Source: Alphaproteobacteria bacterium
GTDB taxonomy: Bacteria > Pseudomonadota > Alphaproteobacteria > SMXQ01
NCBI GenBank assembly: GCA_029863585.1
Contig: JAOTVC010000006.1
Span: 1-42,825 of the forward strand
DNA length: 42,825 nt
Direction of reading: 5' to 3'
Below are positions 2,133 through 22,731 of this stretch, piece after piece. The position numbers and the translations under genes are program-made. Position 1 is the stretch's first letter. Each line of letters opens with the position of its first letter. Below the pieces are notes generated by a model, which saw only the letters and a program-made list of their open reading frames with translations, was not told where the DNA came from and did no database searches.

Positions 2133-2900
2133 ATGGCGGGGAAAGGCATCAATCTTGACGGCCAGGTGGCCATCGTCACAGGCGCAGCGATCAATACCGG
2201 GCGCGTCATCGCCAAGATGTTGGCGGGCGCCGGGGCTGCCGTGGTGGTGAACTATTTGACGTCCGCGGACGCGGCGGCGGAGACCGTCAGGGAAATCGAG
2301 GCCGACGGCGGTCGGGCTTTCGCCCATAGTGCCGACGTTCGGGACCTCGCTCAGGTCAAGGAGATGGTGGCCGAAACGGTTTCACGGTTCGGCGGGCTCG
2401 ATATCCTGATCAACAACGCCAATATCCGCAGCTACCGTCCGCTGATGGAACTGACGGACGAAGAATGGCGCGCGACGCTGATGACTGCGCTCGACGGGCC
2501 GTTCCACTGCATCCAGAGTTCCGTTCCCCACATGATCGAACGCGGCAAGGGCACCATCGTCAATATCGGCGGCGGGTCCGGCCATTCCGGGGTCGCCAAC
2601 CGCTGCCACGTGACCACGGCCAAGGCGGGGGTCGCGGGACTGACCGGTGGCCTGGCGGCGGAGTTGGCGCCCCACAACATCACCGTCAATTGCATCGTGC
2701 CGGGTCGGGTCGATACGGTGAAGAAGCCGGCCGGCGAGCGTAACGAACACCGCACCGACCGCGGCGACAGCCCCATGGGCCGGTCGGCGGAGCCGGAGGA
2801 GATTGCCGATCTCGCGCTCTACCTTTGCGGCGACGGCTGCCGCTACATGAGCGGCCAGATGCTCCACGTCAACGGCGCGCGCTACATCACCATCGCCTGA
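2133..2900 (+). CDS. SDR family oxidoreductase
   Basis: GQVAIVTGAAINTGRVIAKMLAGAGA nucleotide-binding start, NNAN motif, GGLAAELAPHNITVNCIVPG. Confidence 0.85.
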   Translation: MAGKGINLDGQVAIVTGAAINTGRVIAKMLAGAGAAVVVNYLTSADAAAETVREIEADGGRAFAHSADVRDLAQVKEMVAETVSRFGGLDILINNANIRSYRPLMELTDEEWRATLMTALDGPFHCIQSSVPHMIERGKGTIVNIGGGSGHSGVANRCHVTTAKAGVAGLTGGLAAELAPHNITVNCIVPGRVDTVKKPAGERNEHRTDRGDSPMGRSAEPEEIADLALYLCGDGCRYMSGQMLHVNGARYITIA

Positions 2901-5647: not shown

Positions 5648-6655
5648 ATGGTGTCAGAAACTGACGGCGTGATGGCAACGAGCGAATCGGTTGCCTCACA
5701 TGAACAGGCGCGTTTGGAAGAACTGGAATCTTTCGACGTTCTGGACACGCGTCCCGAAGAAGCTTTCGACAGCATTACACGACTGGCACAGACCGCTATA
5801 GGCACGCCCATTGTTCTCGTGTCTCTTGTGGATAAAGAGCGCCAGTGGTTTAAATCCCGCCAGGGTCTGGACGCGGAAGAAACACCGCGTGACATCTCCT
5901 TCTGTACCCACGCCATCGCAAGTGACGATGTGTTTGTGGTCGAAGATGCCGCAGAACATCCTTTGTTCAAATCCAATCCCCTTGTGACAGGAGACCCAAA
6001 TATCCGCTTCTATGCGGGTGCACCGCTCAAGACGAGCAGTGGCTACCGGATCGGCACTCTGTGTGCGATAGATCGAGTTCCCCGTGGACTCTCTGATACT
6101 GAAGAGAAAATCCTCGTTGAGCTGGCATCACTCGTTGTTAGGGAAATGGAACTTCGGAAAATCGCGGCCCTGGACGGTCTTACGGGGGCAATGTCGCGAA
6201 GCAACTATATGACTTTGTGTAATAGAGAACTCGCTCGATCGAAGCGCCACGGCCATGACATGAGTGTGCTTGTTCTGGACCTGGATCACTTCAAGAACAT
6301 TAACGACACATACGGTCATCCAGCAGGTGATCAAGTGCTCAAGGTGATTGCGCGCCTGTGTCTGTCCGAGTTACGCGAGCATGATCTATTCGGCCGGATT
6401 GGCGGTGAAGAATTTTCGATGCTGCTTCCAGAGACGGGGCAGAAAGGAGCGATTGAAGTCGCTGAACGAACGAGAGCGGGAATTGAAGCACTGGATATTC
6501 TTTGGGTGGGTCACAGGATTCAGATCACCTCAAGCATCGGCGTCGCATCCATGAATGAAACAGACCACACAATCAGAGAGATAATTTCCAGGGCTGATGC
6601 AGCTCTCTATGACGCAAAGGGCGGCGGCCGAAATCAGGTTCAAGTACGATTTTGA
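5648..6655 (+). CDS. GAF domain diguanylate cyclase (GGDEF)
   Basis: N-terminal GAF (VSLVDKERQWFKSRQGL...FCTHAI...FYAGAPLKTSSGYRIGTLCAID); C-terminal LDLDHFKNINDTYGHPAGDQVL and RIGGEEF active site with REHD I-site five residues upstream. Confidence 0.95.
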   Translation: MVSETDGVMATSESVASHEQARLEELESFDVLDTRPEEAFDSITRLAQTAIGTPIVLVSLVDKERQWFKSRQGLDAEETPRDISFCTHAIASDDVFVVEDAAEHPLFKSNPLVTGDPNIRFYAGAPLKTSSGYRIGTLCAIDRVPRGLSDTEEKILVELASLVVREMELRKIAALDGLTGAMSRSNYMTLCNRELARSKRHGHDMSVLVLDLDHFKNINDTYGHPAGDQVLKVIARLCLSELREHDLFGRIGGEEFSMLLPETGQKGAIEVAERTRAGIEALDILWVGHRIQITSSIGVASMNETDHTIREIISRADAALYDAKGGGRNQVQVRF

Positions 6656-15622: not shown

Positions 15623-16013
15623 GATCTCCTCCCTTTCTTGCTCCGGCGGGAACAGGCGTTGCGGCCATCGTCGCCCGGCATCCTGGATTACAATTTCAGT
15701 ATATTCCGCTATCGCCGAGGCGGAAACCATGGGCGGCCCGGCGTCCCATCGGTGCAGGTGTCGGCGGGTGCGCCGATCCGCCGGCCCGCGGCAATTCGCC
15801 CTGCGGCGCCCGGGTTAGGAGCGCGCTGTGCCCGGCCCGACATCCGGGTGGGCTTGCCCGAGCCTGCCTTTCGTTCTTGTTGACCCGATTCGGCACCCTG
15901 GCTCGTCAACATTCATGGGAAATATTTTACTTGATATCAGCATCTTAGAAGAATTCCATCATCTAATCCTACTGCACTGCAATTTGGTTGTGGAAAACTC
16001 CCGTCATTTATGG

Positions 16014-16028
16014 TTAAAAAAATCTTAA
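16014..16028 (+). promoter_or_regulatory. Perfect CtrA-type box TTAA-N7-TTAA upstream of the methyltransferase gene
   Basis: TTAA AAAAATC TTAA(C), ending 34 nt before the ATG at 16063, in an AT-rich intergenic region. Confidence 0.65.
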
Positions 16029-16062
16029 CGCCATCAGTAACTTGGGCTATGGCGAGTAAGGT

Positions 16063-17514
16063 ATGAGAACCTACGAAGAGTTGACCGGCGCGCGGGGCAG
16101 CCGGGTGTTCTACCGGGCTGAGCGCTTCAGGGCCCGGGATTTGTTCGCGCGCACGCCGCCGCTTGTCGCCTTCGGCGACACCTATTTCCAATTGGACAAT
16201 CTCTCGATGACCGGCCTTGCGGCGACGCGCAAGGGCGGTGTGTCCTTGACCCGGCATGCCGCCGATGACGTGGCCATCATCTTCGAAGGCGACAACAAGC
16301 CGCTGTTCAGCAGCAAGGGGCGGCTCGAGCGGCTGGAACGCGATCCGGCCGCGACCCGGATCGCGCTGAGCTTTACCGGCGCGCCTTTGGACATCCCGGA
16401 ACTGGTCTGCCGCTACAACGAATCCCTGCTGCGCCGGGACCTCAACGGCGGACTCCATCATGCGGTGGAATCCGTCGCGCCCGACTACCGGAGGCATTGC
16501 GTCGACGTGCTCCATCTGTTGCGGCGTTATCGTTCCACCCTGGAGCAATTCGAGAACAACCCCGCGACTGGACCCGATCGCTCGGAATCCCTGTTCGACC
16601 TCTGTGAACAGCGCATGCTGCCCGAGTGGCGGCAGCTCTGGCGCGCGGGCAACGAACTGGTTAGGCCCCTGGTCGACGAGCCGGAATTGATGCAGGCGGC
16701 CAAGGATTATACCGAGCAGGTGCTGACGCCGGACTTCCTGGCCGGCCCGCTTTGGGACCACAGCTACCGCAAGCCGTTCGGTTATCCGGGCGATTTCCAG
16801 TTGATGGGATACGTCTACGACTGGCGGCCCCGGGGCAAGACCGTCTATGAGAAGCTGCTGGACCGTATGGGACTGGAACTGCTGGAGTGCATTGCCACGC
16901 GCATGATGATGGTGCAGCAGGAGATCGCCCATCTGGTTGCCGCCGCGGCACCGTCGCGGCGGCCGTTCCGGATCCTCAACCTGGGCTGCGGTTCCGCGCG
17001 GGAGATCAGCAACTACCTCGATCAGGCCGAACTCCCGTGTCCTGTGGAGATCACCCTGGTCGATCAGGACGAGCGGGCCCTCAGCCACGCCTATGAACAG
17101 TCTTATCCGAAGATCATGAACCGGGGCGACGGATCGTCGCTGCGCTGCCTGCAGATATCGTTCGTGGAATTCCTCAAGTTCGGCCGAATCTTCCAGTCGC
17201 TACCGCCTCAGGATTTCATCTACAGCATGGGCCTGATGGACTACTTGACATTGGACCGCGCCAGGTGCCTGGCGACGGCGATCTATGCCAAGCTCGCACC
17301 GGGGGCGCGGATGGTGATCGGCAATATCGCCGATGTGCCCGAGGGTTTGTTCTGGCCCAGCGAATTCATCAGCGACTGGAGCATGCGGTTCCGCACGGAA
17401 GCAGACCTCCTCGCCATGACCGGGGGCATTTCCGAAACGGCTCCGCGGATCGTTCCCGATCCCACCGGCAAGTTCTACCTGATCTATATCGACAAGCTCG
17501 CCGTCGTGGAATGA
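16063..17514 (+). CDS. PilZ-like domain + class I SAM-dependent methyltransferase fusion (PhcB-like, 3-hydroxypalmitate methyl ester synthase family)
   Basis: N-terminal RVFYR (RxxxR), 27 aa spacer, NLSMTG ([D/N]xSxxG); central YRKPFGYPGDFQLMGYVYD; SAM motif ILNLGCGSAREISNYLD and EITLVDQDERAL. Confidence 0.75.
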   Translation: MRTYEELTGARGSRVFYRAERFRARDLFARTPPLVAFGDTYFQLDNLSMTGLAATRKGGVSLTRHAADDVAIIFEGDNKPLFSSKGRLERLERDPAATRIALSFTGAPLDIPELVCRYNESLLRRDLNGGLHHAVESVAPDYRRHCVDVLHLLRRYRSTLEQFENNPATGPDRSESLFDLCEQRMLPEWRQLWRAGNELVRPLVDEPELMQAAKDYTEQVLTPDFLAGPLWDHSYRKPFGYPGDFQLMGYVYDWRPRGKTVYEKLLDRMGLELLECIATRMMMVQQEIAHLVAAAAPSRRPFRILNLGCGSAREISNYLDQAELPCPVEITLVDQDERALSHAYEQSYPKIMNRGDGSSLRCLQISFVEFLKFGRIFQSLPPQDFIYSMGLMDYLTLDRARCLATAIYAKLAPGARMVIGNIADVPEGLFWPSEFISDWSMRFRTEADLLAMTGGISETAPRIVPDPTGKFYLIYIDKLAVVE

Positions 17515-17536: not shown

Positions 17537-19066
17537 TCAGCTTCCCACATTGGAAAGATCCTGGTGCCCCTGAGCGCCGGTGGCGGCTTCTCCTGAACCT
17601 TCACCCGTATCGTTACCCGCCCCGGGATCAATCTGGTCGCCCCATTCCGCGCGGCGCCAACCCGGCAGCGTCACCGTCACCGTGGTGCCCTCGCCCAGGG
17701 TGCTCTCGATTCTTACCTCGCCTCCGTGAAGGCTCATGATGCGCTTCACGAGGGGCAGCCCGAGGCCCAGGCCTTCATGAGATCTCGCGGTAGCGCTTTC
17801 GACCTGGATGAAGGGTTCCAGCACCCGCAAGATATTTTCTTCGGCGATGCCTATTCCAGTGTCGGTGACACGGATGGAGCAGCAATCGTTTTCGTCGCTG
17901 AAGGCTGTGACGGTGATGGCACCGCCGCTGGCCGTGAATTTGACGGCGTTGCTGAGCAGGTTGATCAGTACCTGATTCATCAGCCGTTGATCGGCTTGGA
18001 CGTTGAGCTCCTCGGAAATCTTGTAGGACAGGCGAATCCCCTCCTCCGCCGCCTTGTTCCGGAACATGCGCAGGCACCCGTCGATCATTTCGCCGAGGTT
18101 GAATTTCTCCTCGATGACTTCCAGCTTGTTGGCCTCGGCGCGCGACAGATCGAGAATGTCGTTGATGATGTGCAGGAGGTGCTGGCCGCTGCGGTAGATG
18201 TCTTCCGAATAGGACTTGTAACGGTTTGACCCCAACGGGCCGAACATCTCCATCTTGAGGAACTCGGAAAATCCGATGATGGCGTTGAGCGGCGTGCGCA
18301 ATTCGTGGCTGACCACGGCAAGGAATTCACTCTTCGCGTGGTTGGCGGCTTCGGACTCGGCGAGCAGCTGCTCGGATCTTCCTTTCTCCTCAATCAGCAG
18401 GCGTGTCGAGACATAGTTGAAACGCACGTAAAGGTCCTGGATGTAGCTACCGAAAATGCCCACTCCGGTGGCCGAAATGAGAAAGAAATTGTTGCTGAGC
18501 AGCGCCGGCAGGGGAATGGGATTGAGCTTCAGCGCAACGATGTTGTATGCGGCCACCAGACAGATCGAGATCATCGCCGAGATGTGGAACTTCATGCGCG
18601 CCAGGGTCGAACCGTAAATGACGACCACCAATAGTCCGGCGTAATACGCCGCGTTCGTGGGCGGCGGTATCACGGCCGTCATGGTGATGATGCCGAGCCC
18701 GGCGGTCGACATGCCGATCCCAAGGATCAACTGGGCGTAACGCCAGAATTCCTTCCAAAGGGTGGCGGCCGCCGTCAAAAGCACCACGGGGACCACGATG
18801 CCGAAACGGATCGCCCAAACCTGATGCAGCGCACCGTCAAGCGAGAGGTAGTCCAGGACCCCGAACGCGGCGTAGAGCATGGCGCCGAGGCAGAGCGAGA
18901 GGCGGATCAGCGGCAGCGCTTTGTGGATGTCATTATAGGCGTAGGCCCGTTCGACCTTTCGGTCGCGGAACCTTAGGGTCAGCCAGGACAGGGCGAAACG
19001 GCCGGACTCCTGCTCGTTCTCTCCATCCACGCTGATATTGCCGAGATACAGCGGCATTCGGCCCAC
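17537..19066 (-). CDS. Membrane-bound sensor histidine kinase with about six N-terminal TM segments
   Basis: Six hydrophobic segments; H-box [21 protein letters not shown]-box [15 protein letters not shown]1 [12 protein letters not shown]2 [20 protein letters not shown]. Confidence 0.93.
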
Positions 19067-19138
19067 ACCATTCCCTTTCGGGTCTGGTGCGGCGCCAGAC
19101 CCGTCGGATATCCAAGCCTCAAAATAGGATTGGAACGA

Positions 19139-19153
19139 TTAAGGGTCTGTTAA
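19139..19153 (-). promoter_or_regulatory. Perfect CtrA-type box TTAA-N7-TTAA upstream of the histidine kinase gene
   Basis: TTAA GGGTCTG TTAA, 72 nt upstream of the kinase start at 19066 (minus strand). Confidence 0.6.
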
Positions 19154-19452
19154 GGCTGATCGCACCCCGGACGGGTAGGGAGGCCAAAGAAACAGAGGGA
19201 AACCCTCGAAAAATCCAGGCCGTTGCGGCGTTTTTCAGGACCGGGCCGAGCGATCCGCCGGGACGAACCGTGGGTGCCGCCCGATGTCTTGTCGAACGGG
19301 GCCGCGAGGCCCGCGCGGTCACTCCCCTGTACGGCACTGGAATGTTAACAAAAATTAAGCATAATTGCCTTGCCGAAACCGGTAGACGCGGCAGACAGTA
19401 CGCCGTGTGCCACCGTGTTGCCGCCAGCGACCAATGGGAATCAGGTTTCGAA

Positions 19453-20628
19453 ATGTCAGCGACGTTCCCCCTTGAATTCCCGGAAACCGAAAATCGGGAG
19501 CAAGGCACACCTCACACCTGGTTGACCAAGGGGGACCGGCTGGAGGTCAGTCGTCCATCGTTGATGCGTGGCCTCGCGTTGCTCGGGACCTATTTCTGCC
19601 TGTATTACGCGACCATGATCGGGGCCGTGGCGGACCTGCCGCTGGCGGCCAATTTGGTGCTTGGTTTTTTCAACGGTTACATGATCGGCATGATTTTCAT
19701 CATCGGCCATGACTGCGGGCATCGCGCCTTCGTCCCGGGCCGCGGCTTGAACTGGTGGCTCGGCAGGCTGGCATTTATCCCCTGTGCCCATTCGATCACG
19801 TTATGGGACGTGGGTCATAACAAGACCCATCACGCGCGCACCAATCTCAAGGGTTTCGATTACCCGTGGTCGCCTATGTCGAAAGAGGATTACGACGCCT
19901 GCGGCCCGTTCCGTCGGTTCCTGGAACGCGTCTACCGCAGCCCCTTTGGGCCGCTGGTCTATTACTACCCCCAGATTTGGCTCCCGCGGCTTGTGCTACC
20001 GGTGGCTCATGATTCGCGCCACGAATGGCGGCGTCACGTGTTCGATTCCGCGTTCGTCATTCTCGGTCTGATCGCGACGATCGCCGGGGTTCTGGTCCTG
20101 GGACAGTGGCTGGCGCCCGAGCGGCCGCTTTGGCTGACCTTCGTGGTGGGATGGGTGGTGCCGTTCGCCGTCTGGAACTACCTCATGGCGCTCTCGATTT
20201 ATCTTCAACACACCCATCCGCGGATACCGTGGTTCGATAACGAAGACGAATGGTCGTTCTATAACGGCAATATCCGTGGGACGACTCATGTGGAATTCCC
20301 GAAATTCACCGGACTGATGCGGAATGTCCATGAGCATCCGGCCCATCATGCGCTGCCTTCCATCCCCATCTACAAATTGGAGCAGGCGGAATCCAAGCTA
20401 TTGGATGCTTTCGGTGAAGATGTCGTCCGCTACAAATGGACGCCGGCGGCATACCTAGCCGTGACCCGAGCCTGCAAACTGTACGATTTCCGCAATCACG
20501 TCTGGACGGATTTCCAAGGCCGGCCGACCGGCGCGCGCACCTTGCCGGTGCGACTATCGGCCGCCCGGGCTGGCCGGCCCCTTCGGGTCGCCTCCGCCGA
20601 AGATCGAGCCGAAGATCGAGCCGATTGA
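19453..20628 (+). CDS. Membrane fatty acid desaturase (acyl-lipid type)
   Basis: Three histidine boxes: HDCGH, HNKTHH, HEHPAHH; multiple TM segments. Confidence 0.9.
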   Translation: MSATFPLEFPETENREQGTPHTWLTKGDRLEVSRPSLMRGLALLGTYFCLYYATMIGAVADLPLAANLVLGFFNGYMIGMIFIIGHDCGHRAFVPGRGLNWWLGRLAFIPCAHSITLWDVGHNKTHHARTNLKGFDYPWSPMSKEDYDACGPFRRFLERVYRSPFGPLVYYYPQIWLPRLVLPVAHDSRHEWRRHVFDSAFVILGLIATIAGVLVLGQWLAPERPLWLTFVVGWVVPFAVWNYLMALSIYLQHTHPRIPWFDNEDEWSFYNGNIRGTTHVEFPKFTGLMRNVHEHPAHHALPSIPIYKLEQAESKLLDAFGEDVVRYKWTPAAYLAVTRACKLYDFRNHVWTDFQGRPTGARTLPVRLSAARAGRPLRVASAEDRAEDRAD

Positions 20629-22731
20629 GGTGTCATCGGATTCGTCCGATCCCATTGCACCGCCCTGCCCGGGCGCGGGCACACTCCAGTCCCTGTCCGG
20701 TGTTTCGGCCTGCTCCGAACGGTCGCTTTGATCCGATGCTTCCGCTTTCTTCTCAGGCGCTTGGGACTTAGGCGAAGGCGCAGATGGCGGGTTGACCGCG
20801 GCCTTCGGTTGGGGCGTTGAATTGTTTCCGGAAGCGGGTCCCGGATGTTTGGCGGCACGCTTTCCGGTCGGCGATACGGGTGGACCCAGTTGCCGCCAGG
20901 GTGCGAAATCGCCCCGCGCATCGACCTTGAACATCAGGAAATCACGTCCTCCGGCACCCATCGAGTCGGTGGCGCCGGCCAGGATCACTCCGTCGTCTTC
21001 GGTCGCGAGGCCGCTGGTTGCAAGGTCGAAGCCGTCATGGCCGTAAATCTTGTCCCAAAGGACCGTGCCCTTGCCGTCGATCGCGATCAAGCGGATATCG
21101 GTGTTCTTGCGGTTGCCCCTGCCCTGGAACCCCAGGACCAGATAGCCTTTTTGGCGCGCTATGATCGACGCCACCGACAGGAAAGGGGTCCCTGTCTGGC
21201 AGGCCGCCTGGCGCACGGCGGCGACGCGGTCCGCATCGGGAACGGGGTCGTTGGCAGCTTTTTGGGCTTCTGCGATCCGCTCTCGCAGTGCCGGAACGGC
21301 GCAGATCTCGCGAGCTGCGGCCGGCAGCAGATCGCGATAGGGGATCGTCTTGAGCCATTCCTGACGCCCGTCCGGACGGGTTTTCAACAAAAGCAGGCGC
21401 TGGCCCTGGCGGCCGCCTGCGATGATCCCGCCGCCCTTGGTGGGCACCACGGTTGAATACCGGACATCGCTTTTGTCCTGGGATGGGGTCCGGTGGGCCC
21501 AGACCAGGCGGCCTTCGGAGGTCACGCGCAACAGGAAGCCCATTCCCGCCCGGGTGTCCCAGGCGGCTTGGGCCCTCGCCTCGCCGACGGCGATGATGTC
21601 GCCGTTGGGCATCGCCGCGGCGTCGGCAATGTCGTGCCAGAACCGCGTGGCATTGCCGGAATAGAAGGTCTTGCCGAGCGCCTTGCCGTCCTCGGCGAGC
21701 CGGAGCGTATAAGGCAGGCGCGCCGTCGTGCCGTCCTTGGTAACGGTTTCGGCCCCGATCGCGACGATCGTCCCTCCGGTGCTTCTCAGCACAACGGGAC
21801 CCTCGCCGTCTTTGATGCCGGCATAGGCACTGACCCACGGTTTGCCTGCATGATTGGGAATCGGCACCGCGTTCTTGTCGATCCGGACGGCAACGGCGCG
21901 TCCCCGGTAAATACCGCCCAGCAGGAAGCCGCCGCCCGGCAGCGCGGTCGCCGACCGCACGGCGCCGTCCTTGGCGGTACCGAGGATCACCCGATTCCAG
22001 GCCATCCGGCCGTCGCGATTCAACGCGATCATGCCGAGGCTCCGGCTTTCCTTGCGCTTGTTCTTCTTGTCTTCGGGCTGGTGGAAGGTGCCGGCTACCA
22101 GGATTCCGCCGCCCGCGCGGCGCGCCATGGCCCAGGCGGTGTCGTCTTTCGGCCCGCCGAAGGTGATGGCCTTCGCCTTCCAGAATTCACGGATCTTGTT
22201 TGCCCGGTCGAAAGCCGCCGAGGCCGCCGCCCAGCCGTGGCCCGCGCGTTCGCGTTCGGCGCCCCCTTGCCTCGCGGCTTTGAGGGCGCGCTCGGTATTG
22301 ATGAACAGGGTGATCGCGAGGTTGTAGTTGCGCCCCTTGCGGCCGACGGTGTTGAGGTATTCCACCAGCGAACGATAGGCCGGCTCCCAATCCTTCAACT
22401 GGTAATGCGCGTGGCCTTCGAAGAAGATCAGCTCGCCCTTGACGCCCTGGGGCAGCTTTCGCATCTCGGCAATGATGGCAAGCGTCTCTTTGGGCGTCTT
22501 GGCGCGGACCGAGGTATTGAGCTTGAGCCGCAATACATCGTAGCGCGCCGTCGGATCGAGATTGTCGGTTTGCGCGACCGACGGGCCTGGGCTTGCCAGC
22601 ACGAGGCTGGCCGCGAGTGCGACCGCCGCCGGGACCGCGCGGGGGCTCCAAGGGGCCAGCCGTGGCCGGCCGGTCGGGTGCTGTCGGGATGCGCCCTCTT
22701 TGGAAGATGCTAGACTGTGGCCGTGGATCAT
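20554..22731 (-). CDS. Secreted beta-propeller-like repeat protein with N-terminal helical region
   Basis: Signal-like segment ending SVAQ; repeats such as GGFLLGGIYRGR, GDIIAVGEARAQ, GGIIAGGRQGQRLLLLKTRPDG, GVILAGATDSMGAGGRDFLMFKVDARG. Confidence 0.75.
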   Translation of the reverse strand: MIHGHSLASSKEGASRQHPTGRPRLAPWSPRAVPAAVALAASLVLASPGPSVAQTDNLDPTARYDVLRLKLNTSVRAKTPKETLAIIAEMRKLPQGVKGELIFFEGHAHYQLKDWEPAYRSLVEYLNTVGRKGRNYNLAITLFINTERALKAARQGGAERERAGHGWAAASAAFDRANKIREFWKAKAITFGGPKDDTAWAMARRAGGGILVAGTFHQPEDKKNKRKESRSLGMIALNRDGRMAWNRVILGTAKDGAVRSATALPGGGFLLGGIYRGRAVAVRIDKNAVPIPNHAGKPWVSAYAGIKDGEGPVVLRSTGGTIVAIGAETVTKDGTTARLPYTLRLAEDGKALGKTFYSGNATRFWHDIADAAAMPNGDIIAVGEARAQAAWDTRAGMGFLLRVTSEGRLVWAHRTPSQDKSDVRYSTVVPTKGGGIIAGGRQGQRLLLLKTRPDGRQEWLKTIPYRDLLPAAAREICAVPALRERIAEAQKAANDPVPDADRVAAVRQAACQTGTPFLSVASIIARQKGYLVLGFQGRGNRKNTDIRLIAIDGKGTVLWDKIYGHDGFDLATSGLATEDDGVILAGATDSMGAGGRDFLMFKVDARGDFAPWRQLGPPVSPTGKRAAKHPGPASGNNSTPQPKAAVNPPSAPSPKSQAPEKKAEASDQSDRSEQAETPDRDWSVPAPGQGGAMGSDESDDTSIGSIFGSIFGGGDPKGPASPGGR
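20596..20624. repeat. 12-bp tandem repeat (GCCGAAGATCGA) in the tail-to-tail overlap of two genes
   Basis: GCCGAAGATCGA GCCGAAGATCGA GCCGA; encodes AEDRAEDRAD* (+) and SIFGSIFGG (-). Confidence 0.75.

Follow-up and report, generated by a model that had tools for sequence, protein, structure and literature searches.

A PilZ-methyltransferase fusion of Alphaproteobacteria, paired with a membrane histidine kinase, as a candidate c-di-GMP-controlled synthase of an acyl methyl-ester signal

The gene at 16063-17514 of the stretch of alphaproteobacterial DNA analysed here (the window, 42,825 nucleotides) raises the question of whether production of a lipid signal could be set by c-di-GMP acting on the synthase itself. 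Most of the known connections between c-di-GMP and quorum sensing lead from the signal to c-di-GMP or operate through transcription. At this locus, a predicted c-di-GMP receptor domain would lie inside the presumed signal synthase. An earlier note, made from the sequence alone, had read the gene product as a PilZ domain fused to a methyltransferase resembling PhcB of Ralstonia, and had supposed that c-di-GMP might control signal synthesis.

The fusion gene and its PilZ domain

An AlphaFold2 (AF2) model of the full-length protein, built on the family alignment, places a PilZ beta-barrel at the N-terminus, an extended helical linker after it and a SAM methyltransferase at the C-terminus (Table 1). 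A profile search of public genomes yielded a family of at least 80 full-length named loci. Nearly all of the 80 named loci align over essentially the whole length of the window protein, with 35-50% identity, and their hosts, as far as the records carry names, are Alphaproteobacteria of many lineages, including Parvibaculum, Sneathiella, Oceanibacterium, Tepidicaulis and many uncultured lineages. When genomes were sampled from the Alphaproteobacteria, a family match was present in 36 of 389. The fusion recurs throughout the family and is not a one-off. An open reading frame on the opposite strand (15937-17088, minus strand) was rejected as a real gene, because it matches no family and the 80 homologs preserve the sense frame over its whole length. 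Two loci have interrupted frames: in L105 (8001-9445, genome G009) the frame is broken inside the PilZ domain, between query residues 53 and 79, and L107 (6649-8094) contains one internal stop. These may be either sequencing errors or decayed copies.

Table 1. Features of the fusion gene, its partner and related genes, in window positions
Feature	Position	Strand	Evidence
PilZ-methyltransferase fusion, 483 aa	16063..17514	+	ORF with ATG start; 80 full-length homologs; AF2 model, mean pLDDT 88.8
N-terminal PilZ domain, aa 1-110	16063..16392	+	AF2; PDB fold search; Pfam PilZ in 53/66 members at E<=0.1
RxxxR motif, R14-VFY-R18	16102..16116	+	Sequence; R18 in 80/80; position 14: R 41, K 20, other 19
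[D/N]xSxxG motif, N46-LSMT-G51	16198..16215	+	Sequence; full motif in 78/80 homologs
Helical linker/bundle, aa 111-236	16393..16770	+	AF2 helices 111-136, 140-164, 171-205, 207-220, 229-236; aligned with PhcB
Family signature KPFGYPGD, aa 237-244	16771..16794	+	Invariant K237, P238, G240, Y241, P242, G243, D244 in 66 members
SAM methyltransferase core, aa 300-478	16960..17496	+	Rossmann-type fold; fold search; weak Pfam methyltransferase matches
Partner sensor histidine kinase	17537..19066	-	HisKA, HATPase_c; convergent, 22 bp from methyltransferase stop codon
Kinase membrane sensor region, aa 30-230	18377..18979	-	hhalign to PhcS-type sensor; common to cyanobacterial partner kinase
Fatty acid desaturase, directly beyond kinase	19087..20628	+	PF00487, E 3e-25; same place in 6 homologous loci
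GAF-GGDEF diguanylate cyclase	5648-6655	+	Same window, ~9.4 kb before fusion

The two peptides to which the earlier note drew attention, RVFYR at residues 14-18 and NLSMTG, are present in the sequence where it placed them, and are exact RxxxR and [D/N]xSxxG motifs with a spacing of 28 residues from R18 to N46. When the first 120 residues were shuffled, 0.9% of the trials produced a two-part PilZ motif with suitable spacing; taken alone, the motif is suggestive of a PilZ domain and not decisive. The window protein by itself has no PilZ match in Pfam or NCBIfam, and its Pfam methyltransferase matches are weak, all falling under the curated cut-offs, so it is the homologs that settle the PilZ assignment. 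When family members were scanned one by one with the Pfam PilZ model (PF07238), 53 of 66 matched at E<=0.1, with a best value of 1.7e-6. The Pfam match that the earlier note had proposed as a check is found in the relatives and not in the window protein alone.

The AF2 strands of the N-terminal domain lie at residues 34-37, 40-47, 51-57, 69-76, 79-93 and 97-104, followed by the first helix of the linker, and a model of this domain alone had a pLDDT of 82.8. When the latter model was used for a fold search of the PDB, ranks 1 to 20 were all PilZ structures (probability 1.00, E 0.001-0.013), among them VCA0042, PlzA, Alg44, BcsA, YcgR, MotI and MapZ, several with c-di-GMP bound. By both AF2 and the PDB fold search, the domain has the six-stranded PilZ beta-barrel. 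PDB searches by sequence gave no useful PilZ or methyltransferase match, with YcgR appearing only at E 0.74. We conclude, with very little room for doubt, that the N-terminal domain has the PilZ fold. The assignment made in the earlier note therefore holds, in the AF2 model that it had proposed as a check as well as in the fold search and the family matches, and the lack of a PilZ fold at the N-terminus, which it had named as the result that would overturn it, was not found.

The methyltransferase and its relation to PhcB

A fold search with the full AF2 model returned methyltransferases as the top matches, and both of the methyltransferase motifs quoted previously, ILNLGCGSAREI and YRKPFGYPGDFQLMGYVYD, were found in the protein. 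No known unrelated substrate was found for any member of the methyltransferase clade, so this second ground for giving up the earlier proposal did not arise either. We predict an acyl methyl ester as the product, a prediction that we regard as evenly balanced.

For comparison with PhcB, we used a reference clade of proteins outside the Alphaproteobacteria that was obtained by profile search and whose identity as PhcB is taken from the phcBSRQ gene order. A clade member in Paraburkholderia graminis lies in an operon of methyltransferase, kinase, regulator and regulator genes, and the same operon (MT-HK-RR/HK-RR) was found in seven of seven further betaproteobacterial-type loci, the third gene, of ~400 residues, matching both receiver and kinase models. 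Since this anatomy matches phcB-phcS-phcR-phcQ, we take the clade to be PhcB. An independent sign of this identity is that an invariant R22 in the barrel of the clade coincides by number with the published R22 of PhcB, which is reported to be conserved in Ralstonia, Cupriavidus and Paraburkholderia (PMC6989110). The R22C substitution, which lies outside the methyltransferase domain, reduces the amount of active signal (PMC6989110), so the N-terminal domain of PhcB matters for output. The previously unassigned N-domains of the PhcB-type clade that carry this invariant R22, for example the one at 2527-2856 (minus strand) of L127, look like PilZ-like barrels without the c-di-GMP arm.

Aligned as whole proteins with hhalign, the window family and the PhcB-type clade match with an E of 4e-38 over 400 columns, from inside the barrel to the C-terminus, while the N-domains alone give a moderate match of 43 columns (P 2.9e-4). 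On these alignments, the PhcB barrel is most likely of the same origin as the window PilZ domain, minus the RxxxR arm. The two groups differ at one position of their signature, which reads KPxGYAGD in the PhcB-type clade and KPxGYPGD in the window family. In a maximum-likelihood tree of the methyltransferase domains only, a split with support 100 separates the window family and one cyanobacterial protein from PhcB, the polyketide-terminal proteins and the short forms. We therefore rejected the identification of the window protein as PhcB itself, since it is separate in the tree, its gene order is unlike phcBSRQ and its partner has a different kinase core. The window protein is PhcB-like, and is not PhcB. 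What remains of the PhcB link drawn in the earlier note is the shared architecture and the pairing with a kinase that has a PhcS-like sensor; membership of the PhcB clade does not. The best reading of these comparisons would be a system related to PhcB and PhcS that forms a separate clade with its own sensor kinase.

In a gene cluster on an Enterobacter ludwigii plasmid (L154, 6820-9957), the final polyketide synthase terminates in a PhcB-superfamily methyltransferase domain at its C-terminus. This position would fit methylation of the carboxyl group of an acyl chain at release, and suggests release of the chain as a methyl ester.

The partner kinase, neighbouring genes and competing explanations

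The fusion gene is followed by a minus-strand gene for a membrane histidine kinase. Of the 79 loci with enough sequence, 75 pair the methyltransferase gene with such a kinase, and in 73 of 80 the two are arranged tail-to-tail, at gaps of -26 to 307 bp (median ~13 bp). The other seven loci comprise one with an overlap of 142 bp, one with the kinase 1,085 bp away, one that ends early and four with none. The kinase is by far the most widely shared neighbour, the next real gene being found in 34 loci, and we consider it very probable that methyltransferase and kinase are functionally paired. Distances among the PilZ, methyltransferase and kinase parts correlate at 0.81-0.91, values obtained without a housekeeping control and hence set aside as evidence.

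Alignment of the sensor alone with PhcS-type sensors, a reference named from operon order, gave a probability of 96 and an E of 4.4e-9 over 142 columns, by which the kinase sensor is a remote relative of the PhcS type. Around the phospho-histidine, the kinase core reads SHELRTPLN in the window family versus LHEVNNPVN in the PhcS type. The best NCBIfam match of the window kinase core is the DivJ model, at 217.6 bits against a cut-off of 1000 bits. No response regulator recurs beside the methyltransferase-kinase pair among the homologous loci. An adjacent regulator was accordingly rejected as the partner of the kinase, the target of which is probably unlinked; a regulator of the DivK/PleD type might be considered as an idea for this target.

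A relative of the pair was found outside the Alphaproteobacteria, on a plasmid of Pseudanabaena sp. PCC 7367 (L153, 5076-7695), where a convergent methyltransferase-kinase pair lies next to a response regulator gene. The Pseudanabaena methyltransferase is 34% identical to the window protein over residues 181-478, and its partner kinase shares 33% identity with the window kinase across almost the full length, sensor included. Unlike the window protein, the cyanobacterial methyltransferase has no PilZ domain, and unlike the window locus, a response regulator adjoins the pair. In the methyltransferase tree, the cyanobacterial protein nests inside the alphaproteobacterial clade, which suggests horizontal transfer of the pair and loss of PilZ.

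The reading that we put forward, with slightly less than even confidence, is that the fusion is a PhcB-like SAM methyltransferase whose output would be set by c-di-GMP on its own PilZ domain, that its product would be an acyl methyl-ester signal, and that the adjacent kinase would serve as the receptor. The genes around the pair bear on this reading. In 33 loci, the gene immediately upstream, in the same orientation, encodes an MMPL-type lipid transporter; these loci are mostly from Parvibaculum and its relatives and so are not independent cases. A gene for FadL/TodX, an outer-membrane transporter of long-chain lipids, directly follows the kinase gene in 15 loci from mixed lineages, in either orientation, and a desaturase gene follows the kinase in six loci as well as in the window. 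The MMPL and FadL neighbours vary with lineage, and neither was found beside the pair in the window. In most Sneathiella loci, a gene for a FAD-dependent oxidoreductase follows the kinase, at the place that FadL or the desaturase takes elsewhere (L097, L101, L106, L111-L113, L120, L121). The window also contains a 725-residue open reading frame (20554-22731, minus strand) that matches no Pfam family at E<=1 and resembles a delta-60 repeat only below the threshold.

The MMPL, FadL and desaturase neighbours fit work on membrane lipids equally as well as signalling, and the cognate regulator is not among the adjacent genes, as would be the case if the c-di-GMP-regulated methyltransferase acted on a cellular lipid or other small carboxylate with no secreted signal, while the kinase sensed the state of the membrane and regulated unlinked genes. 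However, the sensor of the partner kinase is related to PhcS-type sensors, PhcB with such a partner makes secreted signals in Ralstonia (PMC6989110), and linkage of methyltransferase and kinase over such distances, the cyanobacterium included, is typical of a synthase-receptor pair. We consider this alternative unlikely, with about one chance in a few.

Control by c-di-GMP depends on its supply and on the PilZ residues. Genes with a GGDEF domain were present in all 28 of the family-bearing genomes tested, and the host genome has nine over the cut-off, one of them in the window (6164-6637). Such genes permit c-di-GMP control and support it weakly, as they are common. The RxxxR and [D/N]xSxxG motifs are both exact in the window protein and in 41 of 80 family members; in 20 of the 80 the first motif is KxxxR, and in 19 position 14 holds another residue, which is E in eight. 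Because this first arginine is not conserved, some family members may bind c-di-GMP weakly or no longer bind it. R18, R21, G51 and R90 are invariant and S48 is nearly so. Y4, L7, G9 and G12, also invariant, sit in an N-terminal arm of low AF2 confidence, which could be a stretch that gains order once the ligand is bound. We predict that the window member binds c-di-GMP, and think this probable.

The variability of R14 would also be expected if the PilZ domain were a structural or docking module in which c-di-GMP binding has been lost, as it apparently has in the degenerate counterpart of PhcB, and if the signal synthase were regulated otherwise. PhcB-type proteins retain a barrel-like N-domain that lacks the RxxxR arm, and the R22C mutant of PhcB shows that a domain of this kind matters for signal output (PMC6989110). 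Set against this are the intact pair of motifs in the window member, the invariant or nearly invariant barrel residues, and the conserved positions of the low-confidence arm, as expected if the arm is ordered on the ligand. On balance, a purely structural role is improbable, marginally more so than action on a cellular lipid.

A CheR-like methyltransferase of chemoreceptor type that carries its own equivalent of the MapZ adaptor was rejected as very improbable: CheR is among the weak Pfam matches (E 0.011; 28 of 66 members at E<=0.1), and MapZ, a PilZ protein, inhibits CheR1 when bound to c-di-GMP (PMC6370697), but the CheR match of the window protein reaches 15.6 bits against a curated cut-off of 27, generic methyltransferase models match as well, and no chemotaxis gene was found among the recurrent neighbours scanned. 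It is equally improbable that the kinase gene is a neutral neighbour, retained through shared terminators and not for its function, because, even though convergent genes cannot be co-transcribed and their adjacency is no operon, the pair persists while other neighbours change, genes beyond the kinase change in type and orientation, and the pair with a related kinase is also present on the Pseudanabaena plasmid.

Proposed mechanism and comparison with known systems

In the preferred reading, c-di-GMP control of an acyl methyl-ester synthase, the N-terminal arm (YEELTGARGSRVFYRAER) probably closes over a c-di-GMP ligand that sits on the barrel at N46-x-S48-x-x-G51, and the ligand-driven change would travel along the helical bundle to the enzyme at the C-terminus. 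This enzyme would most likely methylate a 3-hydroxyacyl or unsaturated fatty acyl chain at its carboxyl end, giving a diffusible methyl-ester signal that the tail-to-tail kinase could sense with its PhcS-like membrane domain before passing phosphate to an unlinked response regulator. Computation gives the PilZ fold and motifs, the family-wide fusion, the conserved kinase pairing, the relation to PhcS-type sensors, the PhcB-type layout, the recurrent lipid genes and the diguanylate cyclases of the host; we infer that c-di-GMP binds, in which direction it controls the enzyme, what acyl substrate is used, that the product is an ester and that the signal is sensed.

A broader and somewhat more tentative proposal is that the locus represents a class of lipid quorum-sensing system, not yet described though found widely among Alphaproteobacteria, that joins a PhcB-like synthase with its own c-di-GMP switch to a PhcS-like receptor kinase, so that lifestyle, by way of c-di-GMP, would gate the signal within one protein. 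We found no description of a PilZ-PhcB-like fusion in the open-access literature, which was the scope of the search, and the locus suggests a link between c-di-GMP and cell-cell signalling in Alphaproteobacteria that was previously not described. If the synthase reading is true, c-di-GMP would act directly on signal output at the post-translational level, many Alphaproteobacteria would have a candidate lipid signalling system, and the unassigned N-terminal domain of PhcB, where R22C alters signal output, would be explained; if the quorum-sensing reading is true, the barrel of Ralstonia PhcB would be a PilZ domain that shares this origin and has decayed.

The window N-domain shares its barrel fold and motifs with MapZ, YcgR, Alg44 and BcsA. 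MapZ controls the methyltransferase CheR1 in a c-di-GMP-dependent way, as an inhibitor, and so provides a precedent for control of a methyltransferase by c-di-GMP through a PilZ protein (PMC6370697). MapZ is a separate adaptor on a protein methyltransferase, whereas the window PilZ domain is covalently fused to a PhcB-like methyltransferase. The window kinase resembles PhcS in having a related membrane sensor followed by HisKA and HATPase_c, and differs from it in kinase core subtype. CqsS and LqsS, like PhcS, are membrane sensor kinases. PhcB of Ralstonia solanacearum, the synthase of 3-OH PAME or 3-OH MAME, and its betaproteobacterial clade share with the window family a barrel-like N-domain, a helical linker, a SAM methyltransferase with KPxGYxGD, and a linked histidine kinase with a related membrane sensor. 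In contrast to the window family, the PhcB-type proteins lack the RxxxR arm, have N-L-Q-R-x-S in place of N-x-S-x-x-G, and are encoded in MT-HK-RR/HK-RR operons, while the window family forms a separate clade with a convergent kinase gene and no adjacent regulator.
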